47,038 nt of DNA, from NCBI GenBank assembly GCA_022508265.1, contig JAFLVP010000012.1, forward strand, positions 1 through 47,038. The letters are read 5' to 3'. The position numbers were made by a program, and so were the translations under genes. A model generated the notes under the pieces. The model had not been told where the DNA came from, searched no databases, and saw nothing but the letters and a program-made list of their open reading frames with translations. The stretch is from Clostridiales bacterium (GTDB lineage: Bacteria > Bacillota > Clostridia > Christensenellales > Borkfalkiaceae). Of this stretch, positions 20,476 through 47,038 are shown piece after piece. Position 1 is the first letter of the stretch. The number at the start of each line of letters is the position of its first letter.

Positions 20476-20485
20476 GGATTTTGCA

Positions 20486-22700: not shown

Positions 22701-22730
22701 AAAATCCGCACGCTTCCGCGTGCGGATTTT
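22701..22730. terminator. Terminator of the 24-kb surface operon
   Basis: AAAATCCGCACGC (22701-22713) pairs perfectly with GCGTGCGGATTTT (22718-22730) around TTCC, seven bases after the stop codon at 22737. This marks the downstream end of the six-gene minus-strand block. Confidence 0.88.
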
Positions 22731-22736: not shown

Positions 22737-25700
22737 TTAAAACTGCTGCATAGCTTTGATATATTCATAGGCACCTAATATGGTGTTACGGGAAATAACC
22801 TCTATGTTCTCTTCCACAAAACCGCCCGTACTCAAATCTATCGGTCTTTTCTCTTCGGGCAGTATACCGTAAGCGGACAGGTACGTTAAAACCATACGTT
22901 CTTTGAGCATACATTCGCTGATTTTGTAGGATAAAATATCAGATTGAAGCAGCTTTTCGAGCGTATCCTTGTCGTAGCCCAAAATATCGTCGATTGTGAA
23001 CTTAGGTATTTCGAACACCGACTCCGCCTCGTCGTTCTGTATATAGTCGAGAGCTTCGACAAGAGATTTTAATTCGTCATAAGTAATTATCCATCTCGTT
23101 ATTCCGTTAGTATCGACGGCGGTTCTAATGTACCGGTATTCGTTGGTAATATAAACGCTCTGCCCACTGCTTTGCTCGCCCAAGTCGTAGGTTATGCGGG
23201 CACGCAGAATTTCGCTTGAATACAGATCTTCACGCACCTTTTCGTCTTGGGGAATTTCGGTAATTTCAAAATTTTCCAAATCGTCGATATCCTGACCGTC
23301 ACTCAATACCACAAACACGTTGAGAACGCGCGCTAATTCCTGAGGCAGAATACACTCGTATTCATCGAGTACGCTGACGGGAATTATAAAATCTTCGTTA
23401 TCTAATAAGACTACCGAAATTGTAACAGCTATTAGATATGAGTGCGTATCCCCGTTTTCGTCGTACAGACGCTCGCTGGCTTTGACGAGGTCGACCGAAT
23501 TTATGTCAAACTCGTAGTCTTCATCAATATCTCCGATATTTTCGAACAATGAGAATATGCTCTCTATTTCGTCAATTCTATAAATTGCCACGTCTGTTTC
23601 GTAGGCTTTGGGATGGTCTATCTCCTTGTCGGAAATACTGCCCGAATTGAGACCGTCGTAGAGGTTTTTAGTGATAACTCCGGCGATAATGAGCGAGTTG
23701 TAAATTACGTCAAGGCGAGTCTTTTCGGGGTCGAGGCTCGACTCGTCGTTCAGATTGCCTATATCGGAGAGGCTGAAGCCTTCCATATTGCTGAAGTCCT
23801 CTATTCCCAACTCTTTGATAGCGTCTATAAAGGCGGCGACGTCATTTAACGCGTAGTTGCGGCTGCCTTTCTTTATGTAGCCGAGAACGGACGAATCGAT
23901 ATTGCCGTCGAGCGCCGTATCTATCTGATTGCTGAAGATATATTGTATTATCTGCGAGCGGTAAATGACCTCGAGCGCCGTATCGCCGTCGTATTTTTCA
24001 AGAGGGTCGTTGAGCTTGAGCGCCATGCCGGTAACCGATTCGACTATAGCGTCGCTGTCGGCGTTAAGCAAGTCGTCCAATCCGAAGATGTCGAGCGCGC
24101 TCGAGAGCGCCTGAATCTCTTCGAGCTTGTAGCTGCCGCGCACTTTTACCTCGGCTATGACATCTTCGGGGACTATTCCGTTGCCCAAAAGAATTTCGTC
24201 AAGGCGGATATTGATTTCGTGCCATACGATATCCGAACGGTAGCAAAGTTCCAATTTCGTGATTTCGGGGTTGACAGACGAACTCTCGTTGAGCTCGGTC
24301 AAAAAGCCCGAAAGGTTCTCTATTATGCTGTCGGGGTCGAACACAAAATCCTCGCCCGCTTTGCTTATGCCGAGAATTTCGTCGAGCGCGTCTATAAATC
24401 TGGGAAGCTCTGCTTTCCATACGTTGGATGAGTTGTAGTCCAAAAGCGAAGATTTGCTTCCCGCCTTCGAATATGCCTCGGGAATGGTAATCGCGCTTGA
24501 TATATCTTCATTGTTTACTATCGTATAAACTATGGAGGCGGCAATTATCCTGCTCGAGTCGAAAATATCCTTGTTTACTATCAGCTTGTAGAGTATGTCG
24601 GAGATGTCCGCTTCGCCCGAGAGCTCAATACGGCCTATTACGTCAAACAGGCTTAAAATTTCGCTCTTTTTGACGAGATATTCAAGGCTGTCGCCCTCTT
24701 TGGTCAGCTCCCTTGCGCTGTAGGGCACGATAATTTCGAAACCGCCCGTTTCCAAGCCGTTAATGAGAAAATTAGAAATTGTGTAGTGCAGAACTTGGGA
24801 ATCGAGTATGTTCTGTATAGCCGAGCCGTCCATTGACAGGAAAGCGTCCAAAAGACTGTTCGTGTCGAATTCGCCCTGCACGATTTGTGCAAAGTCCAAG
24901 CTCGTGGCATTTAGCGCGCTTAAGAGATTTCTGAGTTCTCCCTTTTTGCCGTTTACCGTAACCCAACCGTCTATACTTTCGGCAAGGGATGTGGGAATTA
25001 CGGTAAATTCGTTGTCGCTTAAGAAATCCATTAAGAAGTGCGCAACGGTACCCTCGCAAATGCGGCTGTTCGCCAAAAGATTGTCAAATTCCTCGGTCTG
25101 AATATATTCGACGATTTCACCTATATTTTCTGTGATGTCGCCGCCCTCTAAAATGGGTTTGACAAATTCAATGAGTCCCCCGAGATTGTCGAACAGGCTT
25201 TTAAGCTCGCTCTTGGTTATCATATTGACGCTTTCGCCGTTTGCAAGCTTTTCAAGCGCAACATTCGGAACATATATCATTCCCGAACCCATATCTATCA
25301 TTACGCTTGAGATTAGACTTCTCAAAAGCTGGGACTCGGTCAAATAGTACGAAAGATTTTTGCCGTCGTTATCCACGCTTGAAAGTGCGTCCGAAAGGGA
25401 AGAGAGAATTGCGCCGATATCGACTTCGTTCTCGCCGCCTGCGATGCTTAAAATCTCGTCTAAAAAGCTTCCGTCCTGCGCCGAAGCCAAAAGCATAAAT
25501 CCGCTGAACAGCTTGTGCAGCTCGCCCTCGTCAACGACGTTTCCGTCGGCATCTACCTTTCTTGTGTACGCAATATTTTCGGGTATGTATACGTTCTCGG
25601 AAATCGCCGCCAACGCGTCTTTCATCATACCGGTCATAAAGCTCGTAGACATAACGGTGCCGATAATTTCCGACCGCTCCAACGCCGAACGGATATTTTT

Positions 25701-27608
25701 AAAGTACTGCGAGTTTTTCTCGTAGTTGGGGTCGTTCGCGTCGAATAAGGAGATAAGTATATCGAGGGGCTGTTTGCCCGATTTGTAGATATTTCCCCAT
25801 AGAGTGAGCGCGTCGCCCGTAATATCCATAAGGATATTCAGCTCGTCGAGCCACTTTATATTCTTGCCTGCCACCGACGAGTAGGTTATTCCCGCCTCGC
25901 CCTCTGCGGTCAGGTACTTGTTGCCGTAGTAACAGTAAAGTCGCGCCAAAACGGGGTCAAGCTCTCCCGCATTCGAGCTTTTGAAGATTGAAAGCTGTTT
26001 TATTTCGGGCAAAATCGACTTAATAAGCCCCAGAGTGTCCTTCGTCTCCTGATCGCCAGAAAGGATAGAGAACGTAACCTCCAAAGCTATACTTATATCT
26101 TCCTTGCTCAAAATGTGGTTAACTTTAAGTCGGGGACGGGACACCTCGCTCGGGGAGATAATGCCCGCCTCAAGTTGCTGTTTGAGCTCCGATTCGTCGG
26201 GAATAGTGTCGGACAGGTAGTCCTTTTTAAAGAGAATTTTGAGTAATTCCTTGTTGTCATTGTCAAGCGACGAGGTAAAGGAAATTTCGTCCAGGTTTTC
26301 AACCACGGTGGTTATTAGCGACATACCGAGGTTTACTATGTAGGTTTGAGTATCGAATTCCTTAATAAGCGCGTTAAATTCCGCTCGGAATTCGGGGATA
26401 GACATTATATTTACTATCTTATCGAACGAGTTGCTCCCGCCATTGCCGTTTAAGATATCAGCCATGTCGGCTTCGCCGTATTTCATCAAAAGGTTCAGAG
26501 CGTCCTTTGCAAAGCCTACGTAGGCGGCTATTTCCTCGCGGAACTTGATTGTTTGGTCGTTGATACCGTTGTCCTCGTCATCAAGGTTGCCCGAAAGCAC
26601 CATATCCGCCGCAAACAGATAGAAAGGCGTATCGCTTGGATCGGTCATGGAGTTGAGCACCTTGAAAATGCCCTGCGAGCCGTAGCTTTCCACCGAGCGG
26701 TAAATCGAATAATAGAAATTGTAGTCGTCGTTTTCAAAATCGTAGTCGCCCAAAGTGCCCTGACCGAGTCCTCCGGCAACCATAAACAGGGCGCTGCCCA
26801 TAAACGAGAGGGTCAAAAGCCCCACGGTAACGCCGCGCACGAGCCCTACGGCTCCTCCGCCTACGTGGTGTTTTTTGTAGGTTCTGTCCGTTTGGTTCTT
26901 CTCTACCGCCTTCTTAATCTTCTTTTTATACCTTCTTTCGGGATACGCAAAGAAATAGACGATATAAAGAAGGAATACGAGCAAAAAGTACAATATAACC
27001 GTAATTACCGAGAATATTATGCGGAATACCATATCCACGAGCGTCACTATGTACTCCGGATTTGCGGCGAGCAGAATTTTCATATCCCCGCCGATGACGT
27101 TCGGCAGCCACTCGGCAATGATTTCCCTTATGGTCTTGCAATTTTCGCTAACGCCGAGCATGCCTTGAAGAGTACTGCCCCCAAGCATCTGATTTACAAT
27201 GCTCAAAATGGCTTTGTCCACCTCTTCGGAGGTTACGCAAACGTAGAAGAAAACGGTGCAGACTATGCACGCACCCACCGCCTGCGCAAGCAAAATCAAG
27301 CTTTTACGAAGCCCTCTCTTTGCGTTTACGAGCGTGGATACGGTTAATATCGTTACGAATAAAATCGTAGGTCCCCATTTGATTGCAAAATCTATTAAAA
27401 GGAGAATATCCCACGATATTAGCATAACAACGAACGCCGCAAGCACCGCAATACCGGCAACAACGGCGGCTATCGATACAAGCAATATGCCCACTTTCAA
27501 ACCCTTGAAAAGTACGGCAAGCAATATAAGGATTGCAAAAAATATGAAAAGTGCAATCGCCCAATCTGTAAATATGCCGGTAATGCCGTTTGTTTCAAGC
27601 AAATTCAT
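22737..27608 (-). CDS. Large membrane protein with ~11 novel repeats (1623 aa)
   Basis: I do not recognise a named family for the whole protein. Residues 15-36, 40-64, 66-93 and 102-125 are hydrophobic helices; the stretch LVNAKRGLRKSLILLAQAVG (93-112) recalls the GxxRG helix start of CvpA-type proteins. Further helices lie at 195-221 and 256-281, separated by a basic loop (ERRYKKKIKKAVEK) that places it inside the cell, so residues ~285-1623 should be outside. This ectodomain is acidic and helical, with periodic motifs: S-x-I-[IL]-x3-[IV] at 646, 759, 848, 937, 1019, 1125, 1218, 1305, 1390, 1465 and 1556, and an ELxxLxxAL-like motif between consecutive copies. No C-terminal anchor or enzyme motif is seen. 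A GGAGGGAG site precedes the ATG. It is the last gene of the surface operon. Confidence 0.8.
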   Translation of the reverse strand: MNLLETNGITGIFTDWAIALFIFFAILILLAVLFKGLKVGILLVSIAAVVAGIAVLAAFVVMLISWDILLLIDFAIKWGPTILFVTILTVSTLVNAKRGLRKSLILLAQAVGACIVCTVFFYVCVTSEEVDKAILSIVNQMLGGSTLQGMLGVSENCKTIREIIAEWLPNVIGGDMKILLAANPEYIVTLVDMVFRIIFSVITVILYFLLVFLLYIVYFFAYPERRYKKKIKKAVEKNQTDRTYKKHHVGGGAVGLVRGVTVGLLTLSFMGSALFMVAGGLGQGTLGDYDFENDDYNFYYSIYRSVESYGSQGIFKVLNSMTDPSDTPFYLFAADMVLSGNLDDEDNGINDQTIKFREEIAAYVGFAKDALNLLMKYGEADMADILNGNGGSNSFDKIVNIMSIPEFRAEFNALIKEFDTQTYIVNLGMSLITTVVENLDEISFTSSLDNDNKELLKILFKKDYLSDTIPDESELKQQLEAGIISPSEVSRPRLKVNHILSKEDISIALEVTFSILSGDQETKDTLGLIKSILPEIKQLSIFKSSNAGELDPVLARLYCYYGNKYLTAEGEAGITYSSVAGKNIKWLDELNILMDITGDALTLWGNIYKSGKQPLDILISLFDANDPNYEKNSQYFKNIRSALERSEIIGTVMSTSFMTGMMKDALAAISENVYIPENIAYTRKVDADGNVVDEGELHKLFSGFMLLASAQDGSFLDEILSIAGGENEVDIGAILSSLSDALSSVDNDGKNLSYYLTESQLLRSLISSVMIDMGSGMIYVPNVALEKLANGESVNMITKSELKSLFDNLGGLIEFVKPILEGGDITENIGEIVEYIQTEEFDNLLANSRICEGTVAHFLMDFLSDNEFTVIPTSLAESIDGWVTVNGKKGELRNLLSALNATSLDFAQIVQGEFDTNSLLDAFLSMDGSAIQNILDSQVLHYTISNFLINGLETGGFEIIVPYSARELTKEGDSLEYLVKKSEILSLFDVIGRIELSGEADISDILYKLIVNKDIFDSSRIIAASIVYTIVNNEDISSAITIPEAYSKAGSKSSLLDYNSSNVWKAELPRFIDALDEILGISKAGEDFVFDPDSIIENLSGFLTELNESSSVNPEITKLELCYRSDIVWHEINIRLDEILLGNGIVPEDVIAEVKVRGSYKLEEIQALSSALDIFGLDDLLNADSDAIVESVTGMALKLNDPLEKYDGDTALEVIYRSQIIQYIFSNQIDTALDGNIDSSVLGYIKKGSRNYALNDVAAFIDAIKELGIEDFSNMEGFSLSDIGNLNDESSLDPEKTRLDVIYNSLIIAGVITKNLYDGLNSGSISDKEIDHPKAYETDVAIYRIDEIESIFSLFENIGDIDEDYEFDINSVDLVKASERLYDENGDTHSYLIAVTISVVLLDNEDFIIPVSVLDEYECILPQELARVLNVFVVLSDGQDIDDLENFEITEIPQDEKVREDLYSSEILRARITYDLGEQSSGQSVYITNEYRYIRTAVDTNGITRWIITYDELKSLVEALDYIQNDEAESVFEIPKFTIDDILGYDKDTLEKLLQSDILSYKISECMLKERMVLTYLSAYGILPEEKRPIDLSTGGFVEENIEVISRNTILGAYEYIKAMQQF
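22871..25673 (-). repeat. Degenerate ~91-residue protein repeats inside the 1623-aa gene
   Basis: Eleven units begin at residues 646 to 1556 at intervals of 75-113 residues (mean 91). Each has an S-x-hydrophobic-hydrophobic amphipathic helix, often a VxIP-like strand about 20-30 residues on, then an ELxxLxxAL helix (for example at 800, 890, 982, 1066, 1163, 1346 and 1511). The DNA is not detectably repetitive, so the units are old. Confidence 0.65.
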
Positions 27609-27655
27609 ATTTTTACACTCCCTCCTTATTTATATTATTTATCGGGTTGTTTTAG

Positions 27656-28600
27656 CTAAATTATATTTAACAGCAACTCCGGAGAACAGCCCTTGCAGAT
27701 ATCCGCAGGGTCACCCACACCGCCAATCCTGATTTTTACATCTTCGGACGAATAGATTACCTTAAGTTTTTTACAGTTTACAAAGGCGCGCGGTTCTATC
27801 GTTAAGCTGGCGTTTATTTCGACTCTTTCCATCTTGCAGTCGGTAAACGCACCGCTTTCAATCGTAATTACGTAGTATTCGCCCAGCGTTTGAGGTATTT
27901 CAACCACTTTATCGTTGCCCACGTAGCCGTAGATACTTACGTTTTTTCCGTAAGCTATGCAAAGCTTAAAGCCGTCAATAGTAAATCTTTTGGAGTCTCT
28001 TTCAAATAAGTACAGCGACACGCCCACGAACGCACTGACGGCGATAAAGATGAGCGCAAGAAAGAACGCGGGAAAACGGGCAATATTTTTCCTGGTCTGC
28101 TGTTTGAGCTCGAACTTTTTGCCTATTTTCTTCTTTTTCTCTTTTTTGGGCTTCTCTTCCTGCTGTACGGGCGCGGGAGCGGGTGCGGGCTTTTGCGCAT
28201 GCTCGTCGCGGTAATAGTGGTCGAACTTATAGCTGTTGTCCTCGTACTCGCCCTCGTTCCACAAAAATTTGTCGAACGCCGCCTTTAAAAGCCTTACGGA
28301 GATGGTCTTACAGCCGTAATTTACCTTAAGCTTGGCGTTGGGTACGAAATCCTCGTTCGCCTTTGCAAGTACCTTGTCGTATATGACTATCGAAGTTTCA
28401 ATAAGCGCGCCGTCCAAATTGTATTGGCTTACCTCGAACTCCATGCCGAGGAGCTGTTGGTTTACCTCGTTTGAAAACTTAAATACTATATACTTGATTT
28501 CCTCGCGCTCGTTTTCGAACAGGATGTATTCTTTTAAATTTACCACTTCGGAAGTGTTTTTTGAATACTTGATTTTCTCGATATTGTTATACAAACTCAT
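27656..28600 (-). CDS. Single-pass membrane protein with BspA-like leucine-rich ectodomain (314 aa)
   Basis: Residues ~35-110 form a cytoplasmic beta-rich domain (VFKFSNEV...FEVSQYN...VPNAKLKVNYGCKTISVRLLKA). A Pro/Ala stretch (137-146) and a Lys cluster (151-162) lead to one membrane helix at ~176-197, giving an N-in topology. The external part (~215-290) has BspA/LRR_5-type signatures such as VVEIPQTLGEYYVITIESGAFTDCKMERVEI and IEPRAFVNCKKLKVIY, a fold common in surface adhesins. The ATG at 28600 is preferred to a GTG twelve bases upstream because GGAGGT lies ten bases before it. It overlaps the end of the preceding gene by 14 bp. The cytoplasmic domain resembles that of the upstream gene product. 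Confidence 0.75.
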   Translation of the reverse strand: MSLYNNIEKIKYSKNTSEVVNLKEYILFENEREEIKYIVFKFSNEVNQQLLGMEFEVSQYNLDGALIETSIVIYDKVLAKANEDFVPNAKLKVNYGCKTISVRLLKAAFDKFLWNEGEYEDNSYKFDHYYRDEHAQKPAPAPAPVQQEEKPKKEKKKKIGKKFELKQQTRKNIARFPAFFLALIFIAVSAFVGVSLYLFERDSKRFTIDGFKLCIAYGKNVSIYGYVGNDKVVEIPQTLGEYYVITIESGAFTDCKMERVEINASLTIEPRAFVNCKKLKVIYSSEDVKIRIGGVGDPADICKGCSPELLLNII

Positions 28601-29300
28601 ATTCGATAGCACCTCCGTTGGTCTGACTTAAGTTTTTACGGCGGAAGCAGAGCACGTCCACTAAATAGTACATTACGCACAGCGCGAACGACCCGCCTAC
28701 TGCCGAGTAGTTTAAGAAGTTTTCAAGATATTGCAGGGTGTAAATTCCGCCGAAAAGCTCGATTACGGTTTGGCGCACCACAAACAGCGCCAAAAAGAGC
28801 ATAAAACCCTTTATTGCAGCGTGAATATGCACCTTCGTCATAGAGAGAGGGCGAATTGCGTTGTGATTGATTTCGTTTTCGTCCGCCTTGCAAATTATTA
28901 TGTTCACGAATTGACATCTCGGGGAAAGCGCAATTACTCTCGAGGCGTACTCTGCGCCGCACTGGGTAGCTTTGAGCACCTGAATGGGCTTTTTGTGCTT
29001 GTTGTACTGCACTACGAAGAAAGAAATTTCTTCAAAGCTCTTTGTAAAGTTGCAGACAAGGAACTTGTCGTAGAGCGTCTTGCAGATTACGTACTTCTTC
29101 ACGAATTTAGCCGTTTCGCCCGTCGTCAAATAGATAGAGTTTTTAGAGTTGGTCGTTTTAACCGTCTTTAAAAGCTCGTCCTCGTGAAAGTCGTGATAGT
29201 ATTTGTTTTTCAAAAGCCGCATGCAAAGCAGGGCTATAACTCCCGCAACGAAGAGTACTGCCGACACAGCGCTTAAAAATCTCCAAATAAATAAAGTCAT
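28587..29300 (-). CDS. Three-helix membrane protein with cytoplasmic beta domain (237 aa)
   Basis: I do not recognise a named family. Membrane helices lie at ~6-28, 164-184 and 197-219. Residues ~55-140 are soluble and beta-rich; the basic residues after helix 1 (RLLKNK) put this domain in the cytoplasm. The segment FLVCNFTKSFEEISFFVVQYN...FVNIIICKA parallels the N-terminal domain of the next gene product. The ATG at 29300 has a GAGGAT ribosome binding site and lies 13 bp after the previous stop. A longer frame reaching 29465 is rejected because it runs through the tail of the 475-aa gene and yields a low-complexity basic extension. It probably partners the LRR protein in the surface complex. 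Confidence 0.72.
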   Translation of the reverse strand: MTLFIWRFLSAVSAVLFVAGVIALLCMRLLKNKYYHDFHEDELLKTVKTTNSKNSIYLTTGETAKFVKKYVICKTLYDKFLVCNFTKSFEEISFFVVQYNKHKKPIQVLKATQCGAEYASRVIALSPRCQFVNIIICKADENEINHNAIRPLSMTKVHIHAAIKGFMLFLALFVVRQTVIELFGGIYTLQYLENFLNYSAVGGSFALCVMYYLVDVLCFRRKNLSQTNGGAIEYEFV

Positions 29301-29313
29301 ATTATCCTCTTGC

Positions 29314-30741
29314 TTATTCGCTTGTTTTCTTGGTTGTCGTCCTCGTCCGCTTGGGCTTCTCTTCCCCGCCGTCCTCGGTCTTGGGTTTTGTCGTCCTCGT
29401 CCGCTTGGGCTTTTCCGCGACAGGCTCTGCGGGCTGTTCGGCTGCCGGCTCTGCGGATTGCTCAACGGCAGGTTCGGCGGACTGCCCTGTTGCAGCTGCG
29501 GCAGGCTCTGTAGGCGGCACGTACTGTGCCTCGGCTACCTGCGAGTCTATAAACTTGTCTAAATCGAACTTTTCGGGTACGAATTTATCCAAGTCGAACT
29601 CCTCCGATTCCCCGCCTACGGGCTCGTCAAGCTGCTCTATTACCGACCGTACGGATACGGGCTCCGTCGGTTCAGTCGTCTGGACTTCTTCGGGTTGAGG
29701 CTGAACGGGTTGCGCGGGTTGAACGGGTTGTGCTGCGCCGTTTTGCTTAACTTCCGCCTTTACCTCTCTGTGCATTTCTCTGCTCAAAGCCGCCTTTTCG
29801 GCTTTTTCCTTAAGCTTTTTGCGGGCGGGACTGTCGGGCGCGGGGATGCTGTCAGACTGCGTATCGTCAAACAGCGCAACCAAATTGCCCTTAATTTCCG
29901 ACTTTTCGAACTTCATGCCGTTGCACGCTTTAATGTTTATTCCCGCAGTGCGCTTGCCTGCGTTGGTAGGGTCTGAAACGATATCTTCGAACAACTCCCT
30001 TTGCGCAAGCTTTTTGGCAAGGTCGAACATAGGGATTGTGAGAAGTATAAGCACGGCAGAAACTATTATTCCGCATGCGCACGCCAACAGCTTGAATTTC
30101 AAGGGCACGAACAGCCAGAGAAAGTATAACGCTCCGCCGCAAATGCCCAACACACCCGCTTCTAAAAGCGTGGGTATGAAAAAGTTCAAAAATGCGGTTG
30201 TCTTGCCCTTGCTTTTCATAGTGTCGAAACAAATTTTAATCGTTTCGGCAACGCTCAAGTCGGGGTTTGTCTCGATTATGTAGGGCGTGGGCGAAAGAAT
30301 GAGTATCATTACGACCGCGTACGCCAAAAGTACAAGTCCGCCGGGGATGCAGAACAGCCAAGGCGTGTACCAGGGCACGGCTACGAGTTCGGACACAATA
30401 AAGCCTATAAAATAGAGTATGACCGTAGCAACCGCTATAATAAGCGCACCGCCGAGGAAGATAAACGCCTCCGTAATTATGGTCAGCACCATAGTCCCGA
30501 GGGGTTTACCCTTGGTTGCAACTTTCAGCGTTTCGGGAAAATCCGTTTTACCGCTTTCCCGTACCACTTTCGCTTGACGTATATTTGCAAGGTCGAAAAT
30601 CGCGCTGAATATTATCGTCAGTCTTGCAGCGAGTTCGGCAAGAAAATACGCCCATACTTGCAGTATATTCTTATTCTTCCAAATAGTCGACGCCGAAGAT
30701 TTTATTGCGTTTTTAAAATAAAATGCAAATCCTCTGTTCAT
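29314..30741 (-). CDS. Polytopic membrane protein with Pro/Glu-rich charged tail (475 aa)
   Basis: About six hydrophobic helices occupy residues ~31-53, 82-122 (two), 128-150 and 185-245 (two), with the conserved-looking loop LSPTPYIIETNPDLSVAETIKICFDTMK between the fourth and fifth; this arrangement resembles DUF975/GlpQ-type membrane domains. From ~260 the protein is soluble and disordered: a cytoplasmic-looking segment, then Pro/Gln/Glu/Ala-rich tandem runs (SAEPA-type units near 425-445) and two copies of EKPKRTRTT near the end. The basic tail suggests interaction with nucleic acid, polyphosphate or acidic protein, but this is inference. It is third in the surface operon, with GAGAGGT before the ATG. 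Function unknown. Confidence 0.7.
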   Translation of the reverse strand: MNRGFAFYFKNAIKSSASTIWKNKNILQVWAYFLAELAARLTIIFSAIFDLANIRQAKVVRESGKTDFPETLKVATKGKPLGTMVLTIITEAFIFLGGALIIAVATVILYFIGFIVSELVAVPWYTPWLFCIPGGLVLLAYAVVMILILSPTPYIIETNPDLSVAETIKICFDTMKSKGKTTAFLNFFIPTLLEAGVLGICGGALYFLWLFVPLKFKLLACACGIIVSAVLILLTIPMFDLAKKLAQRELFEDIVSDPTNAGKRTAGINIKACNGMKFEKSEIKGNLVALFDDTQSDSIPAPDSPARKKLKEKAEKAALSREMHREVKAEVKQNGAAQPVQPAQPVQPQPEEVQTTEPTEPVSVRSVIEQLDEPVGGESEEFDLDKFVPEKFDLDKFIDSQVAEAQYVPPTEPAAAATGQSAEPAVEQSAEPAAEQPAEPVAEKPKRTRTTKPKTEDGGEEKPKRTRTTTKKTSE

Positions 30742-30765
30742 ATTATACCTCTCTAAAGTTCCGAG

Positions 30766-39700: not shown

Positions 39701-42700
39701 AAATAAGTTTTATAATCATTACAGCCAAGCGGCGTACCGTCGTATTCCTTTTCGGCGCTGCCCGTCACAACGACTATTTCGCGCGGCGTAATTTTAAGCG
39801 TGCCGTAAACGGTATCGTACAGCGCGTAGTTTGAGTTGGGCATTTCGAATTCGAATATATTTTCAATGCCCGTGCCGTCGCCCACTTCGGTTATGGAAGC
39901 AAGCTCGCCAATAATTTTAAGACTGTCGCCGTTTAAAAGTCCCTCTTCGTCTTCGTGAGCGTATTTGGTCGTGTAGGTGGCGCAGGTCAGAGGAGTTTTG
40001 TCGTAAATCTTTTCGGCGGAATCGGTATAGACAATAATTTCTCTTGCCGTGATTTTTAATGTGCCGTATTCGTAGCTCTTTATTTCGTAGTTGGAGTTGG
40101 GAACCTCGAACACGCACTCGTTTTTGACGCCGTTACCGTCGCCTACGTCGGTAATCGACGCCGCGCTTACGAGAATGAGTCCGTCGTCGCCGAGAAGTCC
40201 TTCGATGCCCTCGGCTTCGAAGTAATAGGTTTCGTATTCAGTATTTACGAGCGGCGTGCTGTCGTACACCTTGCTGTCGCTTGCCGTTTTGACCGTGATA
40301 GGCCTTGCGGTTATCCAGAGATAGCCGTAATCGTAAATTATAATATAGTTGTCGGTTACGTCCTGTTTACTTAATGTATCCCTTATTCCGTACACCGTAC
40401 GGTCCCGACCGCTTTCGTCTACGTTTATAATGCTGTAGGGCACTTGCTCGTAAACTTCCTGACCCACGAGCACTCCGGTTGCGCTGTAACCGTTATTCTG
40501 AAGCGGCGTGCCGTCGTAAATTTTGGTACTATCCTTGGTCGTTACAGTGACGGTGCGAGCTTCGATAACGAGCGTGGAATTCACGTAGGTTATGTCATAG
40601 TTCGAAGTAGTTTCGGCGCCGCTCGCGTTGGTTATTCTGGTTCTTTGCTCGTCGGCAATTATCGTATATTTGCCGACGGGGTTGAGCGCATTGATGTCGG
40701 CATTCTCGAGAGCAACGAATACCTCGATTTCTTCGCCCGAAGCGAGCCTGCAGGTATTGGCGTTTACAATGTTGCCCGTGCCCGAAGGATATTTAATCTC
40801 TTCGCCGTAGACGGCGGTAACGTCGTAAAGCACGACGTTGATTGAGCGCTCGTACACCTTCAGCTCGCCCGTGACAACGGCTGCTATTACATAGTTATTG
40901 TTGGGAACCTTATAGGGACATTCGTTCCGTACCGTGCCGACGTTGGTAATCGAAGAGGGCGTACCGTCAAGTATAAGCTCGTCTCCCTCCACAAGCCCGA
41001 ACTCCGTTTCCGAACCGTTTAAATTGGTTCTGTACGAAAGATTTGTGAGCGGCGTGCCGTCGTATTCCTTATACGCGTCGGCCATAATTACCCTTATGCT
41101 TCTTGTGGTTATGACAAGTAGGCCGTAGGTTACGGACTTAATATCGTAGTTGCCGCTTTCGTCAACCAAATCGAATTTATTTTCCACCGCGCCGGCGTCC
41201 CTCCGTTCGGTAAGATTGGAGATAGTGAGCTTGTCGTTTTCACTGATAAGCCCAACTTTGTTTTCGCCGTAGTAGTGCGTTTCGTAGGCGCCGTAAGAAT
41301 GATAGAGTCCGTCGAAAGTATAAAGGGTCGTGCCCGTAGTTACCGATATGGGGCGCTTTTCCACGGTAAGAGTACCGTATACGGTACTGATATCGTAGTT
41401 TACGGTTACCTTTTCGTTGCTGTTTATAATTTCAAACCCGATTGCGTTGCTTATGCTGCCTGCGTTTGTTATAGACACGGAGTCGGTCGGTGTGATTTTG
41501 TGTCCGAAAGCGAGACTGCCGTAAACCATAAAAGTGGAGTTTGACAACGGGTCGCCGTCGTAAACCTTTCTGGACGTGCCCGTCCCTACGGTAATTTTCC
41601 GCTTGAATAAGGTCAGTGTGCCGTATTCGTAGGTTATTTCGTAGTTAATATCGGTTATATCTCTGCCCGAGCGGTCCAATATGGAAATTGCAAGCAGGTT
41701 TTTACCGCTTTCCGCCACGGTGTAGATGCCGTAATCGTTGTTTACAAAGTGGTTCTCCCATTCCACTATCTTCGTCTCGGTTATAACCTCGTAATTGTGG
41801 TTGTAGAACTTTTGTCCGTCGTATTCCTTTTCGCCCGTGGCAGTCAGAATTGTAATTTTACGCTTTGATATTGCGAGCTTGCCGTACGTTGTGGTTATAA
41901 CGTAGTTATCGCTTACGTCAACGCCCGCGCTGTCGTATATGCTGTAAGAGTTTATATTGACGATCGAGCCCACGTCCGTCAGAGTGGGATATGCACTCTG
42001 TTCGGCAATTCTATGACCCGCCGCAAGCTCTTCTGCTTTGTGGGTAAATGTAGCGCTTTCGAGCTTGTTGCCGTCGTAGACCTTTTCCGCGCTGCCCGTG
42101 GTTATCGTAATCGCGCGAGCGTTTATAACCACGTCTGCGGTAAGCTTTTTAACGTCGTAAAGGTGGGTTACGTCTACATTGCCCTTCATTATCTTAAAGG
42201 ACTTAACCTCTATTCCGTAGCGTCCCTTGTCTTTGGGCGCGGGAATGGGTTCGCCGTCTTCGCTGACCGCACCGTTTACAACGGTTAATGTATCGCCGTC
42301 GGCGAGCTGAGAAAGCGACTTTTCCGAAACCTCGTTTTTAATTTCTAACGCGCTGCCCGAATAGGTTTGAGTAACGCTGTCCGCCTGCAAAGTGATTGCA
42401 CGGGGGAGAATTTCAAGCTCCTTGCCCTCGTAGGTTATGCTAAAACAGGAAGTATAGTCGTCACCGTATGCGTCAATGATTTTTACGGTGTCTTTAATTA
42501 CGTTGACCTGCGTCTTGTTCCCTGAATAGCTTGCATAGTTGAACCGAAGTTCCTCCGTTTCGAGCTTTAGTCCCGATACAAGGTTGGTTACGGTACATTC
42601 TTCGGGAATTTCCCCGTAAATTACGCTGTCCGAGCCTATGCTGAACACTGCCTCGCGCGGCAGAATTTCAAAGTGAACGGGTTCGCTGTAGTTCTTGCCG

Positions 42701-43029
42701 AACGCCTTATCCGTGACGGTGCGCGCAAGGTATTTTCCTGCCTTTACGGGCTTTTTACTGCTCCACTCGTCGCTACCCTCCAAGGAGTACTCGTATCTTA
42801 CGGAGCTCAAAAATGCCGATGCCTGCGTGGGAGAATAGTTGTCGCCGAAGGTAATTTTGGCAGGCAAATACATCGCAGTCGTCACCGTTCCCTTTGCAAC
42901 GAGCAAACCCGTGGTGGCTGCGATTATAAGCAAAAATGCGCCAATCAACAAAAATCTGAATCTATGTACGAAATTTTTGGCTTTGGCCACTTTCTGTATT
43001 CGGTTTAAATAATCATCGTATGATATCAT
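30766..43029 (-). CDS. Giant MBG-repeat surface protein (4087 aa)
   Basis: This single uninterrupted frame of 12.3 kb encodes an N-terminal basic segment, one membrane helix at ~25-47 without a signal-peptidase-like site (a signal anchor), and an enormous ectodomain. Roughly 35 tandem beta domains of about 80-110 residues follow, of the MBG/MBG_2 type found in bacterial adhesins. One kind carries K-x-YDGTPL at its start, GDxLxI, SITDVG and NYxIxxxYGTLTIxxR; another carries a YGExxxYP element (for example near residues 750, 1220 and 2270). Residues ~3656-4087 hold four different ~110-residue repeats with GLLPGH and SDRSYLY motifs. There is no LPXTG signal, C-terminal helix or S-layer homology domain. 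It is expected to reach far from the cell and act in adhesion or as a scaffold; the ligand is unknown. Confidence 0.85.
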   Translation of the reverse strand: MISYDDYLNRIQKVAKAKNFVHRFRFLLIGAFLLIIAATTGLLVAKGTVTTAMYLPAKITFGDNYSPTQASAFLSSVRYEYSLEGSDEWSSKKPVKAGKYLARTVTDKAFGKNYSEPVHFEILPREAVFSIGSDSVIYGEIPEECTVTNLVSGLKLETEELRFNYASYSGNKTQVNVIKDTVKIIDAYGDDYTSCFSITYEGKELEILPRAITLQADSVTQTYSGSALEIKNEVSEKSLSQLADGDTLTVVNGAVSEDGEPIPAPKDKGRYGIEVKSFKIMKGNVDVTHLYDVKKLTADVVINARAITITTGSAEKVYDGNKLESATFTHKAEELAAGHRIAEQSAYPTLTDVGSIVNINSYSIYDSAGVDVSDNYVITTTYGKLAISKRKITILTATGEKEYDGQKFYNHNYEVITETKIVEWENHFVNNDYGIYTVAESGKNLLAISILDRSGRDITDINYEITYEYGTLTLFKRKITVGTGTSRKVYDGDPLSNSTFMVYGSLAFGHKITPTDSVSITNAGSISNAIGFEIINSNEKVTVNYDISTVYGTLTVEKRPISVTTGTTLYTFDGLYHSYGAYETHYYGENKVGLISENDKLTISNLTERRDAGAVENKFDLVDESGNYDIKSVTYGLLVITTRSIRVIMADAYKEYDGTPLTNLSYRTNLNGSETEFGLVEGDELILDGTPSSITNVGTVRNECPYKVPNNNYVIAAVVTGELKVYERSINVVLYDVTAVYGEEIKYPSGTGNIVNANTCRLASGEEIEVFVALENADINALNPVGKYTIIADEQRTRITNASGAETTSNYDITYVNSTLVIEARTVTVTTKDSTKIYDGTPLQNNGYSATGVLVGQEVYEQVPYSIINVDESGRDRTVYGIRDTLSKQDVTDNYIIIYDYGYLWITARPITVKTASDSKVYDSTPLVNTEYETYYFEAEGIEGLLGDDGLILVSAASITDVGDGNGVKNECVFEVPNSNYEIKSYEYGTLKITAREIIVYTDSAEKIYDKTPLTCATYTTKYAHEDEEGLLNGDSLKIIGELASITEVGDGTGIENIFEFEMPNSNYALYDTVYGTLKITPREIVVVTGSAEKEYDGTPLGCNDYKTYLYGDPGQVGLISGDGLLNPTFLSSRIVAGSQDNVCTFEVPSNNYVIADYEYGTLTIKPRAITIEISEVNDVTYGESFEEYPSYLGNFANADTCNLANGEQIQIAVCYMQKGVRVEPKNAGEYVITLDIEKTSVYNKDLDEIEDGIYNYNITVVTFTATIYQKTVWITFEPAEIIYGEGRNFKPEYSFDVAPEDMPYGEEIRLGFRYLISEGMYGRTYDSPYHVGEYEISISLSKSAVYADGIEVIDGLYNYSLLGENSTVTVIPKEITVELNDILGVEYGESYSYPADEGNYKNVLDLPYGDTLTVCAILPEYEGLYINVGIYAIKADEEKTLINGVADTSDYIITYIDGELEIIKRKIVVINEGAEKIYDGKPLENRTYYTYRAEDGGKGIVDGTELEPSASYVSILDVSEGTPNSNRYFGTDNYEIVDYEDGMLIITPRVIYISSENEVIEYDGEYHSPKTALDEEHSFHINKDGEREPALVSGHYFVIGEPTSIRNAGTIPNADLKNNRIFNGENGEDVTENYLIAEESTGTLTITQRRIILTTNSATREYDGTPLSDSGYTSRHTDKADQPGVLQGDELALVGDAKSVTNVWEGAVKNDNRYTHRNYFITTIINGTLRVTPREITVEIGDKTMQYNVKPYNFGTEVDNYENFLNCELIYGEKLHIEVTYTDADGKAYASTRRFSVGTYGIVLDTKNCLIYRDGEILTRGIENYSVFCKGATLTVTPKKVTITQNDIESVYGDAIEYKGYQGGENIPYYNGIQDALTFSYGYYYMDENGELVLLPDRAKAGEYVIHAHKDTALVNGEKPFNYEFNFVDGTLLVIPRTVNIVLKNKEVTYGEEIELPEGADAIYPVELVYDDTFEVFLTALSEEKFNAGTYYGYIMIDGAKTLVNGERDTSNYIFNYISADLIVKQRGISVKLNEPEAEYTYGEIYTYETGIGNYLYAENLAYGEQLEVVVLYYLNGEYYEAPKNAGTYTLIISELIAYDESGRFIRDGGNNYYVEDVQSASVELTVKRPSLHIEIDDSEYIYGFEAPEITFSILDYYTMEETELPFGEVLTFDFLYMQGTFSNVTPDDAGEYVIYTVPSLAYINGEREGVANYIIVGAHSATLTIHRRQIVVETATSSHVYDGTYYSNVYVNSHYYNDESTEGFVGGYQPDILWNSVPKVKDVIEGEIENRFEFEVSRNYEIVGEIGYGKISVTPRELTVELNRYEIIYGEEFGYPVYEGNYLYAENLVYGEQLEIYAYLVADKDVPDIGEYEIKAYADKTLVNGGEPTNYYITYISGVLTISVRRIVITTESRTWEYDGEEHSHPYGDPEKSYYLNVDGENAGTALVEGHEFEAGEYPTIKEAGWKYNTCYGGDIFDSDRNIVTANYEIVSMADSGILTITPRRITITTGSAEKEYDGDELYNYSAEVTKGEIAKDQIFFVSYFPTITNAAQTSQGNNVLEITIISLDNEIVTDNYAIEYVYGTLTVSPRRIVVITADDSKVYDGTPLRKVSGYKTYHFEHPEEEGLLNGDSLSVVSSVSITDFGSILNACEYRPNSSNYMIMDGYYEYGTISITKRHITVETLSKTKMYDGNPMCETGYKTYLTDDKSSPGLIGNDKLILDEDSIVYVTEIGENKVNRLVFSIASENYEIDGYVYGELVIIQRRIIIITATDSKTYDGTPLENYTDYTVILEGEDGDGMLDGDTLEVTSWTSITDVVRTSSGGVGRTDNECTFELPSDIYYLVEIRYGTLTINPAPLKVVLHDVASVPYGQTLFYPAGEGNYVSAEGLIGDQTLEVVVYYTDENGTKVSPVNAGVYSIYIDWENSLISGVSGLGNYELDYEYKTAEIQKIALKIVLTQSSNFSYNGKSKSYDSNAYTIVDGSTLDGETLFVVVKYFDEDGNEYNEAPSDAGNYTIVFDYENSLIRKDDGFMPANINYGIVCESELEYIITPAKFTVTFTDVESIYNGREFDYGMSGAFTVGGLFGEDELQCNVKYYLDGEETTALNAGIYRVVFDTDNIEFINGKASNYEFDYSKSVYSCELEITRRSILVQVNDREIEYTVEVDPGDESYSASFTAHGQVLSGAAFVVDDEENAGATYYYDGTTNLPSGVGIYEVTVRFLNEEVMKNYDVTALPGTLTITGRKVLVTPYYTGEELVYNGYELDVQELIRQGKLGITHIHNLHGLPEDDRYGFAPEDLEMLTLVYEFMDAESGNLYENGAAPKDAGNYYVSVKVSGYDEERYTVETAIMPYFLIIRRKDVNITSISSLEKAYDKKAPEGIRIEYSGICEPDVKVCSIIPLYIDANGQVATAINAGTYVIQAKIDIESIAKNYNIVYGVNATGTVIVNPIVLYLRPQSREEYYQGRNITLGESDFEFVDEEHSKLVAGDKIIIEPSASLDPSKTYVTVSIRSARVIDIATNGDMTGNYKLYYSYDRSVMGSDYSSSDFKGKLEYLIRNIYYRQIVSEDQKLFVYDGTAKTIEGSLYEIVQGKGEGLYKSDRIEISSATVGPQVGEYSNWLKLKVYNSYGVDVSRVYNLILENADTSTVIIKAVNITLEIFSTVTDEKIENKSVFYTSTRFENRYALNKIYYSVDGLVDGHELDIIAIKSHGVWNFAVVIYEIKASGSLTDRSDCVNLKVVKEDTLNIRCFTVECHSLTSIQSDITFTLKISYEDIVSGKGLTTYDDRPALTSAQYKIDGLLPDHALNTQVVVVPLNGYITLAILITNGRSDRSYYYYLNSCILPAGFPDGEVNIVLVSSIMEVRQDATISITAKLDDIKAGKGLAETFDGKLALSGAYTVEGLLPGHTAQVIPMMSGGKVTLAVLIFEAKLTNGVMSGRSDRSYLYNLVVKSAPSGADVVLVSSLNDLKTDIKITLNAAVTAANLKNGAGVTTSAIDGRNVLDSSMFTLENYFGVSPLASGHYVEIVVEREGNNFNLYVVVYQLSSSGKRSDRSYLYSVNVENVQSGITVEYINTADLGDAGLN
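30790..32060 (-). repeat. Four C-terminal SDRSYLY/GLLPGH repeats of the giant protein
   Basis: A TTCTGTCGCT-type DNA motif (encoding SDRS on the minus strand) recurs near 30861, 31193 and 31523, with a diverged copy near 31828, that is every 305-332 bp. Each unit contains a G-L-[LV]-x-[GD]-H motif, a valine-rich strand pair and the terminal [ST]DRS[YD] motif. The units are more alike than the MBG domains, suggesting more recent duplication. Confidence 0.7.
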
Positions 43030-43062
43030 AAAACCTTTGCTTTGCCTTAATTTATTTCTTAC

Positions 43063-46000
43063 TTATCCTATTACTATTACCGACGCCGATAAATCGTCTA
43101 TATTGGTTACGTTGAAGTTCTCCGTAACGTCTACGCCGTCATTGTTATAAATTTCGATTGTAAATAAATCGTCTGCAAAAACCGTGAGAGTGCCTCTCGC
43201 GGGATTGTACTCTATAATGTCGTTAAATCTTATATAAAAACCTTCCAACAGGGGCGTGAAATTGGATACGCGCAGACATTCTTTTATCCCGTCGGTAACC
43301 TCATAGGGTTTTGAGACTTCAGTGCAGAGATAGTTGTCGAGTGTGAAGGTTATATCTCTCGGAATTATCTCTACGCTGATTGCATATCTGTTTGTGATAT
43401 TGATATTGCGCGTAATATCCTCGCCGTAGACGTTGTAAACGCGCACGTTGTCCTTACTGATACTTATGTCGTACGTATCTACCAAGGAGTCTGAGCTTTC
43501 GCAGGTTACGGAAATGTAGTGTGCGAAGGGTATTTCGCCTCCCGCTGCGGAAAGAGTTATACTTCCCTTTTTGACTGCGCTTGCGGTATCGAGTGTAAAT
43601 ACCTTTCCGTCATAGGTCTTTTCGTGCGTTTGTTTAACCGTACTTTCAATATTCGCGTCGAGTTGCGTGACGACGAATTCCGCCTCTCCGCCCTCGGCTC
43701 CGTTCACAACGAGCTTAAAGTTTTCCGTATCGTCCTTGTAACGGAACCTTATGCCGTAATAATAGGTCTTTACGTCTTTTATGGTTTCCCAAGTGTACAT
43801 TTCGAAATAATTCTTGAGAATATTTGCGTTGTTTGTGATAAGCGGCGACCTTACTACCGAACCGGTGGCGCTGTCTCTGCAGGTTACGGACGCAACTTCC
43901 GCAAACGAAATCAAAAACTCCTCGGCTTTGTAGGTCTGTCTTTCGTTTATAAGCGTTATTTCAACCGTACACCTGTTTACGGTTACTCTTCCCGTGTTGT
44001 TTTCCAATTCGTAATTTACGTAGTCTGTGCCGTTTTTGAACTCTACGGAGTACTCGTACTCGCCTGCGTTTTTCATATCGCCACGCGCACTGACTGCCAA
44101 TCTGTCCAAGGTAAGGTGCGGGGGCAGAGAGTTCTGACTTACGACGTCGGTAATCGAGGGAATATGTGATTGAGCGTCATAGACGTAAGAGTTATTCGGA
44201 AGAGCAAACGAAACCGGATACTTTAAAACCGTAACGCTTCCCTGCTCGACGAATAAATCGTAATTCTCCGCCTCGAGCGCGTTAACTAACTGCACGGTGT
44301 AATAATAGGGCTTTGCGCTTGCATTTATTGCGCTGCCGCTTTCGCATACGATCTTGTAGTCTTCCGCTCTCAAATTGTTGCGCAACCAATCCTGCGATAT
44401 AACGTCCTGCACCGTGGGAATATGGGACTGTCCGTCGTAGTATTCCTCGGTGTTGGGCAGGTTGATATTAGATATAATGCATTTGTCAACGTTTATTTCT
44501 CCGCCGTTTATATAAAGAACGTGGTTGTTTTCGTCGACGCTGTTATTGAATTTTATCGTATAGGTGTATCTCCCTACGTTCTTTATCGTGCCGCTTGTAA
44601 CAATGCTGAAAAAGTCCTCTAAAGTATAGCCTTCGGGATTGTCTACGAGATGAAATACGTCGCCGTTTACTCCAAAAAATTCCATTATATCTCTATACCT
44701 GTTGGGCACCCAGACCTCGCCCGTATACTCAAAGCTATCGGACGCAAGCATTACGTTGACGATGCATCTTTCGATTTCTATTGCGCCGCCCGTAATAATT
44801 ATGTTGAAGTTTATGGGGTTAAAGTTTTCGTGGAGAACTGCGGTGTAGGAATACGAACCCGCGTTTTTGATTTCGTTTTTGGAGGGTTTCAGGTCGAAAC
44901 ATTCCCTGACCAGAATTCCGTCGAACACGTTGCTCTCGTCAAAGGGGTCGTACGGCGCATTGTTTATATCGAATGCCTCGCCGTTATAGACGAATTCGTA
45001 ATCTCTCAACTTCAGGTGGAAATTATAGGGCGTGATTTTAAGTGAGCCGTACTGATATTCGAAGCTGTAGTTGCTTTCGTCTACCGCATACCCGTCGCGT
45101 TCCAATCTGAAAGTAACTTCGTTTATAATTTCGCCTACGTTCTCCAACACGGGATAATCACTGTCGGCAAGTACCGCTCTGAAGCCCGCAGGCATATTTA
45201 CAAAGTCGGTATCGTCTCTTCTGAGAATATCGCCGTTATACACCCTCGTTTCGCTCTTGGTTCTAACCTTAATATTTAAGGGAGTAATTTCAAGATAACC
45301 GTACTGATAGCTTATGTCGTAGTTTTCCGTAACGTCATTACCTTCGTCGTAGACCGTCACCTCGAAGGAGTTGAGTATTCTGTCCGCATTGATTATGTTG
45401 GGGCTGTCGTCTATCATGGGCGCCTCAACCGTGTGCCACTCTACGAAATTGTATTTGCCGATATCGCTTTCCTCGACGTGACCGTAGAGCGTCACTCCGT
45501 CGTACGGCTTGGAACAGTTGAGCGTGACGACTCTTGCGGCGCGCTTTAATACGGTCAGCGTGCCGTATACGTAGGTTATATTATAGTTTGCCGCCAAGTC
45601 CGTCTCGAGTTCGCTCTCGTCTACTATAGTGCACAGGAATTCGTTGCGCACAAAGCCGTACCCCGTTATCGAAATCATGTTCTCGGTATCGTACTTCAAT
45701 ATCTGATTTGGCGCAATGTTCATAGCCGTGGGCGCGTTTTCTTCAGAGGCTCCCTCCAAAGGTAAGCCGTCGTAGGTTTTGGAAACGGTAGGGGTGACTA
45801 TTGTCAAATCGCGCTTGAGGACCGTCAGCGTTCCGGGAATGCTGATTACCTCGTAATTGCTCAAGGAGGCGTTGTCGGAAAGCCTGATATTCGTAACGTA
45901 GTGCTGCTTTTCGCCAGCATCTCTGATGGTATCGGTCTGATTTACGCTCAAGAGCAGTTCTCCGGGCGCAAGTCCCTCGCACGAGAGAGGGTAATCGCCG

Positions 46001-46971
46001 TTGGTTACGGTGTGGTCGGTGCCGTCATAAAGCCAGCTCTGGCTCTTTGCGGTTATCGTGAGTATACGTTTTTCTATGCGCACTACTCCCGTTTCGGAGA
46101 TGTAATCCAGAATATAATTTTCGGTTACGTCCACTTCTTCGGTGCCGATCAGCTGATAAATAGCTATCTTGGTTATGCGCGTAACGGCTTCGCAGACGTC
46201 GATATAGCTCGTATCGCCGTAGTTTATCTCTACTCCTTTGAAGTACTGCCCCTCTGCAAGCGAACCCTCATAAATTTCGAGCTCGCCCGGCGTCACTTCG
46301 ACGCCGTCGTAAACTTTAATCACGTCCGCGGGCTTTACCGAAAGCGGACGGGGCACTACCTTTATTTCGCCCATAGTAAAGGTTACGTTGTAGTTTTTGG
46401 TAACGTCGTTTCCGACCGCGTCGAAAACTACGGGCCTCAAATCGGAGGGAAGCTCGTCGTTCACGTTTATGAGCTGCACGTTCTGCGAACCGGCAATTTT
46501 ATGTCCCGTAACGAGTTCGCCCTCGGTTACGGTATAATCGTCGAAACTGACTTTCGTGCCGTCGTACATAACCTCGGCATCATTCAAAGTGACGGAAATA
46601 TTCCTGCACGTAACCTTTAAGCGTCCTCTCGCTACGCCTATTTTGTAGCCGTCGGTGACGTCGTAGCCGTCTTTGTCGCAAATCTTAATTGTAAGACTGC
46701 TTTTGCTTTCGCCCACTTCGGTCTGCGAACCCGTAATCTCGATGACGGCGCGGTGCCCCTCTCGAAGCTCGCCGTCAATGAGCTCGTATTCGTCGGCGAC
46801 AAGCGGAGTACCGTCGTAAACTTTTTCCGCATCGTGAACGGCGTAGTAAAGCTCTATCCGCTCGGTTACTACTACCCCCGTTGCGAATAGCGCAAAAACC
46901 GTTAGCAGCGCCGCCGCTACGATAATTACAAGCATACCTACTATTAAAATGGATGTTCTGAATCTTGACAT
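43063..46971 (-). CDS. MBG-repeat surface protein (1302 aa)
   Basis: The architecture matches the neighbouring giant protein: a short basic N-terminus, a membrane helix at ~7-32 acting as signal anchor, then about thirteen MBG-like domains recognisable by a YDG-type element at each start (KVYDGTPL, VMYDGTKV, WLYDGTDH, KPYDGVTL, YYDGQSHIP) and a YGTLTVLKR-type closing strand. Two adjacent domains carry a YxxQSHIPxxxDV variant. The C-terminus ends in an ordinary domain strand with no cell-wall sorting motif. It is the first complete gene of the surface operon, 33 bp ahead of the 4087-aa gene. The two probably form parallel or interacting fibres. Ligand and role are unknown. Confidence 0.83.
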   Translation of the reverse strand: MSRFRTSILIVGMLVIIVAAALLTVFALFATGVVVTERIELYYAVHDAEKVYDGTPLVADEYELIDGELREGHRAVIEITGSQTEVGESKSSLTIKICDKDGYDVTDGYKIGVARGRLKVTCRNISVTLNDAEVMYDGTKVSFDDYTVTEGELVTGHKIAGSQNVQLINVNDELPSDLRPVVFDAVGNDVTKNYNVTFTMGEIKVVPRPLSVKPADVIKVYDGVEVTPGELEIYEGSLAEGQYFKGVEINYGDTSYIDVCEAVTRITKIAIYQLIGTEEVDVTENYILDYISETGVVRIEKRILTITAKSQSWLYDGTDHTVTNGDYPLSCEGLAPGELLLSVNQTDTIRDAGEKQHYVTNIRLSDNASLSNYEVISIPGTLTVLKRDLTIVTPTVSKTYDGLPLEGASEENAPTAMNIAPNQILKYDTENMISITGYGFVRNEFLCTIVDESELETDLAANYNITYVYGTLTVLKRAARVVTLNCSKPYDGVTLYGHVEESDIGKYNFVEWHTVEAPMIDDSPNIINADRILNSFEVTVYDEGNDVTENYDISYQYGYLEITPLNIKVRTKSETRVYNGDILRRDDTDFVNMPAGFRAVLADSDYPVLENVGEIINEVTFRLERDGYAVDESNYSFEYQYGSLKITPYNFHLKLRDYEFVYNGEAFDINNAPYDPFDESNVFDGILVRECFDLKPSKNEIKNAGSYSYTAVLHENFNPINFNIIITGGAIEIERCIVNVMLASDSFEYTGEVWVPNRYRDIMEFFGVNGDVFHLVDNPEGYTLEDFFSIVTSGTIKNVGRYTYTIKFNNSVDENNHVLYINGGEINVDKCIISNINLPNTEEYYDGQSHIPTVQDVISQDWLRNNLRAEDYKIVCESGSAINASAKPYYYTVQLVNALEAENYDLFVEQGSVTVLKYPVSFALPNNSYVYDAQSHIPSITDVVSQNSLPPHLTLDRLAVSARGDMKNAGEYEYSVEFKNGTDYVNYELENNTGRVTVNRCTVEITLINERQTYKAEEFLISFAEVASVTCRDSATGSVVRSPLITNNANILKNYFEMYTWETIKDVKTYYYGIRFRYKDDTENFKLVVNGAEGGEAEFVVTQLDANIESTVKQTHEKTYDGKVFTLDTASAVKKGSITLSAAGGEIPFAHYISVTCESSDSLVDTYDISISKDNVRVYNVYGEDITRNINITNRYAISVEIIPRDITFTLDNYLCTEVSKPYEVTDGIKECLRVSNFTPLLEGFYIRFNDIIEYNPARGTLTVFADDLFTIEIYNNDGVDVTENFNVTNIDDLSASVIVIG

Positions 46972-46993: not shown

Positions 46994-47038
46994 TTATACG
47001 TTCTGTTCTATAAGTTTAATGGTCTCCTTGCAGAGCGC
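46994..47038 (-). CDS. Possible 3' end of a gene continuing beyond the window
   Basis: A minus-strand frame entering from the right edge reads ALCKETIKLIEQNV and stops with TAA at 46996-46994, 22 bp ahead of the 1302-aa gene. Fourteen codons are too few to identify it. If real, the surface operon extends further upstream than this window. Confidence 0.35.
   Translation of the reverse strand, partial: ALCKETIKLIEQNV

Follow-up and report, generated by a model that had tools for sequence, protein, structure and literature searches.

Giant surface-protein genes of a Clostridiales bacterium and the McrBC-type NTPase module that precedes them in related genomes

What kind of system is encoded by six consecutive minus-strand genes, two of which specify membrane-anchored proteins of 1302 and 4087 amino acids (aa)? 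The genes lie on the stretch of DNA analysed here (the window), which is the whole of a 47038 bp contig (JAFLVP010000012.1; C4) from the 1.55-Mb, 43-contig genome of a Clostridiales bacterium (GCA_022508265.1; G000). An initial annotation, made from the sequence, treated them as a complete six-gene operon for a surface apparatus. This delimitation proved too narrow, as the contig ends inside the operon and at least four more genes, representing a McrB/McrC-type NTPase module, lie upstream. On balance, and from comparison of sequences, we lean towards the view that these genes make up the 3' portion of an operon of ten, in the order U1-U2-U3-U4-MBG1-MBG2-p475-p237-p314-p1623, which would encode an NTPase machine that is embedded in the membrane and bears giant surface rods.

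Gene order and the upstream NTPase module

An AAA NTPase gene (U4) lies upstream, and its 3' end falls within the last 67 bases of the window, which hold its last 14 codons and the stop (reading ALCKETIKLIEQNV*), ending 22 bases before the ATG of the gene for the 1302-aa protein (MBG1). A tail resembling ALCKETIKLIEQNV also ends U4 in six relatives (G052, G104, G050, G041, G107 and G004), and in relatives the MBG1 orthologue follows directly after U4. Another contig of the window's own genome (C33, 4251 bp; locus L114) carries U1 and then the first ~145 codons of U2 before it ends; we infer that C33 and C4 belong together.

When 93 genomes of the genus were searched with p237, 21 matches were obtained, 16 of them strong (E <1e-100, the window's own genome included) and five weak. 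The order p475-p237-p314-p1623 is kept in all 16 strong-match genomes, with an MBG2-type gene (MBG2 being the 4087-aa protein) upstream in 15 of 15 and an MBG1-type gene in 11 of 11 genomes with contigs extending that far. U1-U4 precede MBG1 in all five reaching contigs (G004, G048, G038, where U1 is cut, G121 and G117). The genes flanking the locus differ between genome groups while this order is held, so that the proposal of one dedicated unit came through the gene-order comparison, and the anatomy of the ten-gene cluster in relatives is well supported. Two named relatives with the locus, Pumilibacter muris and P. intestinalis, carry MBG2 to p1623 together with pieces of the motor domain at contig ends. 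In two genomes the MBG2 gene appears as two open reading frames (ORFs), G050 (L040:2557-13008) and G121 (L096:2185-10483), due to a frameshift, an assembly error or a true split.

The upstream module was read in relatives. U2 and U4 are anchored by transmembrane (TM) segments, have unlike N-terminal membrane parts and share a common AAA_5 domain, for which alignment with McrB of E. coli gave E 3e-5. Walker A is found in 43 of 44 AAA sequences (a truncated copy lacks it), and both Walker A and Walker B are present in the six AAA domains of alignment A7. All 44 sequences have NNDD, where the alignment to McrB is gapless; the motif fits NxD(D) and NxxD alike, and a reading of it as "not NxD" was dropped, since NNDD satisfies both patterns. 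DUF2357 matches the N-terminal 330 aa of U3 in 6/6 members at E ≤ 0.1 (31 bits in the first member, with a cut-off of 23.3) and the full-length U3 of G049 (26.1 bits). The C-terminal half of U3 (residues 311-570) is matched by SMC-type coiled-coil models (PADLOC, NCBIfam), and no PD-(D/E)xK nuclease was found in this protein by Pfam, PADLOC or PDB sequence search. In U1, whose ectodomain is GH3-like, GH3_C and Fn3-like domains were recognised along with TM segments; its tail is a degenerate homologue of the AAA domain (hhalign probability 99.6), Walker A being absent from the aligned stretch.

As in canonical McrBC, the AAA domain aligns to McrB and U3 has DUF2357 (both in relatives, as the window holds 14 codons of U4). 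The system differs from canonical McrBC in that a PD-(D/E)xK nuclease was not detected and in having TM anchors where the DNA-binding specificity domain would be; no such domain was found by Pfam in the upstream module. With CoCoNuT systems, as outlined in PMC11090510, it shares a coiled coil on the McrC-like protein, and its NNDD motif is compatible with their NxD as well as with NxxD; it is set apart from them by its membrane anchoring and by the failure to find an associated nuclease.

Paired motors and two forms of the core

The motor domains of U2 and U4 are 96-100% identical at the DNA level in 12 of 21 loci, a count that covers 21 of 24 loci, as L155 has one AAA copy and L158 and L159 have none (the caller chose antisense frames). 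Pooled over these 12 loci, the two motor domains differ by 91 synonymous and 5 non-synonymous codon changes, and the N-terminal parts of U2 and U4 within the same loci are 34-49% identical in aa sequence, the shared linker included. Between five genomes of the window's clade the motor domains are 76-83% identical. In the AAA tree the copies pair by locus in many loci, and one branch of 17 rows splits into upstream-type and downstream-type sequences, so that the duplication of the motor looks old. The pattern points to gene conversion as the process that would keep the two motors identical; repeated new duplications are a less likely cause, given that the membrane parts of U2 and U4 stay distinct.

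Within the order, 87 of 396 genomes, from 31 of 142 genera, have relatives of U3. The same query, for which that result serves as positive control, found none among 398 genomes in a wider draw from the phylum, G000 included. Neighbourhoods were taken from 40 of the 87 positive genomes: two motors and/or MBG giants were seen in 18 and a single motor in 21, and one (L168) was placed in neither type, as the ORF caller gave no U3 or AAA ORF. Together with eight slices from the genus, the two-motor/MBG set (type B) amounts to 26 slices, within which L107 and L050 show one AAA copy; the label type A was set before the trees were made and covers everything that is not two-motor/MBG, L165 included. 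The gene content of distant loci was obtained with a simple ORF caller and profiles built in this analysis.

Proteins with a TxAWF motif occur in 15/21 one-motor slices and a signal-peptidase motif in 7/21, compared with 0/26 two-motor/MBG slices in both cases. One such peptidase (L166) matches SipW with E 2e-27, under the cut-off of that model, and exceeds the cut-off of a general signal peptidase model; the secreted protein of this locus is just below the cut-off of the SipW-signal model. In 23 of the 26 two-motor/MBG slices, or in slices adjoining them, the motor module is followed by a gene of MBG type; L050, L160 and L161 did not show one. In each of the AAA and U3 trees a single branch separates the two forms (support 100 and 99); both trees were built by a quick method, with labels and root set by us and several long branches flagged. 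Within the order, the core thus appears, as judged from these comparisons, to come in two forms, one with a single motor and SipW-type secreted proteins and the other, found here, with two motors and MBG/YDG giants. Five genomes (G013, G309, G338, G418 and G445) each gave two U3 matches, one strong and the other weaker, which means that the two forms may share a cell.

The initial annotation could not match the locus to any described system. We find its nearest described relatives in the CoCoPALM systems, introduced in a single paragraph of PMC11090510 that defers the details to a later paper. According to that paragraph, an FtsB-like TM/coiled-coil domain is joined to a McrB GTPase, both McrB and McrC have coiled coils, and neighbouring genes encode signal peptidases thought to be pilus assembly factors. 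Measured against this short account, the present system is similar in having a TM segment on a McrB-type NTPase (in U2 and in U4), a McrC-type partner with a coiled coil (U3) and a link to extracellular structures, and the one-motor relatives, with the SipW-like peptidase of L166 and the TxAWF proteins, fit the description. The window's system differs from what is described there in its two motors, in the protein combining GH3 and a degenerate AAA domain, in its membrane-anchored MBG/leucine-rich repeat (LRR) giants, in p475, p237, p314 and p1623, and in the lack of a signal-peptidase motif or TxAWF protein in its 26 slices. As the core is common but the peptidase is not, we regard it as a variant, rather than a member, of CoCoPALM as so outlined. 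No account of the MBG-type form was found in a literature search whose coverage excluded bioRxiv and most subscription papers.

Interpretation of the locus

In the arrangement that we favour, U2, U4 and possibly U1 would form a mixed ring under the membrane, with U3 as its stimulator in the role that McrC has for McrB; that the U2 and U4 motors are nearly identical in this clade fits interchangeable places in one ring. Hydrolysis of nucleoside triphosphate (NTP) could be coupled, via the TM segments and the predicted cytoplasmic tail of MBG2, to the assembly, positioning, extension or release of the MBG rods, and the ectodomains of the LRR protein and p1623 may be binding or gating parts. The small proteins may export or tether the giants, as put forward in the initial annotation. 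We propose a surface apparatus because both forms of the core fit one plan, with a motor inside and a filament outside. The system would then most likely be a new, nuclease-less and membrane-anchored variant of McrBC-type machines that acts as an NTP-driven surface apparatus. Only tentatively do we put forward a bolder version, in which the McrBC NTPase has been turned into a mechanical engine of the membrane that drives the rods (extension, retraction, release), its two motors being kept identical by gene conversion for one ring; this would be a powered surface apparatus of a kind not described before. Such an interpretation ties a defence-type NTPase family, with no nuclease detected and a protein of ~4000 aa outside, to the cell surface. 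The two forms amount to a paired natural experiment on membrane McrBC machines, one motor with SipW-type secreted proteins versus two motors with MBG rods, and the two named Pumilibacter strains, if in culture, make the system testable.

Several observations weigh against this interpretation. Searches for U3 found it neither in the window's own assembly nor in the two Pumilibacter genomes, and an AAA profile search of the window's genome found nothing, whole motor domains not being found there. The Walker B pattern is in place in only 37 of the 44 AAA sequences, and the full-length U3 of G004 gives no DUF2357 match, although its N-terminal 330 aa do. In nine of the 21 loci the U2 and U4 motor domains have diverged, with 60-82% DNA identity. 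The tail of MBG2, to which coupling is assigned, is as conserved as the ectodomain (29% each) in 11 distant loci. Gene order also varies: in divergent loci p237-p314 stand before U1, and p475 and p1623 were not detected there. G049 (L108) has p237-p314-U1-U2-U3-U4-MBG1-MBG2, G015 (L050) starts in the same way until its contig ends, and G102 (L107) has p237-p314-U1-U2-MBG1-MBG2 on one contig, with no U3/U4. From these orders, p475, p1623 and the place at which p237-p314 stand characterise the window's clade and not the family as a whole. In L107 (6071-12464) U2 runs straight into MBG1, either by loss through recombination between motor copies or by assembly collapse.

The missing U3 and motor domains we ascribe to assembly breaks in the duplicated motor domain. 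Contigs end in or next to this domain in G000 (L114), G052 (L190 and L193), P. muris (L191) and P. intestinalis (L189 and L192), and the absence of U3 from broken assemblies is what would be expected if the duplication breaks contigs, which is not proof. This constitutes a trap for annotation, as a repeat that breaks assemblies makes U3 drop out, and what is left resembles a plain adhesin operon.

The main rival, suggested by descent from McrBC and by matches in PADLOC, is an anti-phage or other conflict system, in which adsorption or contact would be sensed by the ectodomains and the McrBC-type module would set off a protective response, for instance membrane damage or an arrest of growth. 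In PADLOC, the candidate-defence model PDC-M26A is matched by U2 (E 3e-44) and the "Effector 2TM" model, weakly, by U1 (E 0.023); a defence role would also suit the patchy presence (21/93 genus genomes), the differing flanks and the variable ectodomains. We nevertheless consider it rather unlikely, as no nuclease (HEPN or other) was found by Pfam in the ten products, or by PADLOC/NCBIfam in the seven of them scanned, while ectodomain makes up much of the operon and secreted fibre-type proteins are found in the sister form.

More doubtful still is a passive adhesin or envelope locus, with the MBG and LRR proteins as simple binders and the NTPase module as a separate neighbour or as a chaperone or quality-control factor for insertion. 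Adhesin-like MBG/YDG and LRR_5 repeats would agree with it, as would promoter-like sites above expectation (see below), which allow separate transcripts. Such a reading has to account for a neighbourhood that recurs across many genera, for U1, U2 and U4 being membrane proteins themselves, and for surface partner and motor type switching together in both trees. A chance association in a draft assembly (a mis-binned or chimeric contig) is highly improbable: contigs do break at the repeat and L107 may be collapsed there, but the same order is found in independent assemblies of many species, the two named Pumilibacter strains included.

The six-gene stretch and its products

The coordinates within the window are given in Table 1. 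The six ORFs were confirmed with the sizes reported in the initial annotation (1302, 4087, 475, 237, 314 and 1623 aa), as was their close spacing (13-47 bp or an overlap): beginning with the 1302-aa gene, the intergenic distances are 33, 24, 13, -14 (overlap) and 47 bases. The closing terminator was likewise recovered, as a hairpin with a perfect 13-bp stem and a 4-base loop, 6 bases past the stop of p1623; it was read from the sequence, a mechanical terminator scan not having listed it. Each product has at least one TM segment by hydropathy (in gene order 1, 1 plus 1 weak, 6, 3, 1 and 4), and no LPxTG-type sortase motif was found in any of the six, so that membrane anchoring and the lack of a sortase signal both stand. 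A ribosome-binding site had been assigned to every gene, which goes too far: a Shine-Dalgarno-like 4-base match precedes four of the six starts and is absent before the 1302-aa and 4087-aa genes. With regard to internal signals, terminator-like sites are not in excess (19 against 24.2 expected; 6 against 11.7 in a second scan), whereas promoter-like sites exceed expectation (30 against 21.4; 22 against 12.4), so that internal promoters are possible.

Table 1. Position and predicted character of the genes and the terminator-like hairpin in the window
Feature	Position	Strand	Description
U4 tail	46994..47038	-	Last 14 codons and stop; cut by contig end
MBG1 (1302 aa)	43063..46971	-	N-terminal TM anchor, MBG/YDG-repeat ectodomain
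MBG2 (4087 aa)	30766..43029	-	~20-aa N-terminal tail (predicted cytoplasmic), 1 TM + 1 weak, giant repeat ectodomain
p475	29314..30741	-	Polytopic DUF975-like membrane protein, 6 TM; charged, Pro-containing tail
p237	28587..29300	-	3 TM; no family match
p314	27656..28600	-	N-terminal domain (predicted cytoplasmic), TM 178-196, BspA-type LRR C-terminus
p1623	22737..27608	-	4 TM in first 280 residues, then ~1340 aa; no known family
Rho-independent terminator-like hairpin	22701..22730	-	After p1623; stem-loop in sequence

The MBG repeats named in the initial annotation were recovered in part. Residues 1-500 of the 1302-aa protein match the Pfam YDG model (27.2 bits, cut-off 25), and proteins of some relatives are above the Pfam cut-off for MBG, but the whole 1302- and 4087-aa proteins, and a 501-aa piece of the latter, stay below the MBG and YDG cut-offs. 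In their repeat ectodomains they resemble MBG/YDG-repeat adhesins and, with p314, BspA-type LRR surface proteins, from which they differ by their N-terminal anchor, the lack of LPxTG and their position within an NTPase operon. Transglutaminase-core domains occur inside the MBG-type giants of divergent two-motor loci (L108:12850-15711 and L187:2896-6303).

In 12 near relatives, residues 1-27 of MBG2 are 68% identical and residues 60-400 are 43% identical. The idea that the tail is the best-conserved part everywhere was rejected, as it holds for these 12 near loci and fails for the 11 distant ones. As the pattern used to locate the tail required YxxY, the motif is no evidence there; BLAST matches beginning at query residue 4 are. 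The identity set was drawn from 26 candidates by omitting G254 (a false match), G457 and P. muris and adding G048; no MBG2 candidate was obtained from G160, G078 and G173.

Among the smaller proteins, p475 reaches 33.3 bits with DUF975 (Pfam cut-off 34.8), and E ≤ 0.01 is obtained in 7/10 members. LRR_5 is detected in p314 in 21/21 members at E ≤ 0.1, the window's member having 25.7 bits with a cut-off of 27.7; p314 was scanned first as a C-terminal piece and later whole, and 24 of 26 weak rows from its search begin at residue 148 or beyond, mostly in the LRR part. The best conserved among the four small and medium genes aligned is p237, for which there was no Pfam match near the cut-off (an N-terminally extended version was scanned) and none in PADLOC or NCBIfam. 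No credible Pfam family was found for p1623. A CvpA/Colicin_V identity of its N-terminus, suggested by a likeness seen by eye, was rejected, as Pfam Colicin_V matched 0/21 members at E ≤ 0.1; a Colicin_V gene was not found in the window's genome, and matches occur in 6/14 control genomes.

Some neighbouring genes may be mentioned. Response-regulator genes stand beside divergent two-motor clusters, in L106:14627-16541 together with a histidine kinase and in L050:14111-14785 as judged by sequence only. In the window itself, the genes at 9295-13935 resemble what we take to be a glutamate mutase/methylaspartate fermentation cluster. At 19001-20872 the HAD and rhomboid genes are separated by a gene for an M28-type peptidase and a 142-aa ORF, both of which are absent from this position in the sister genome G052 (L036).

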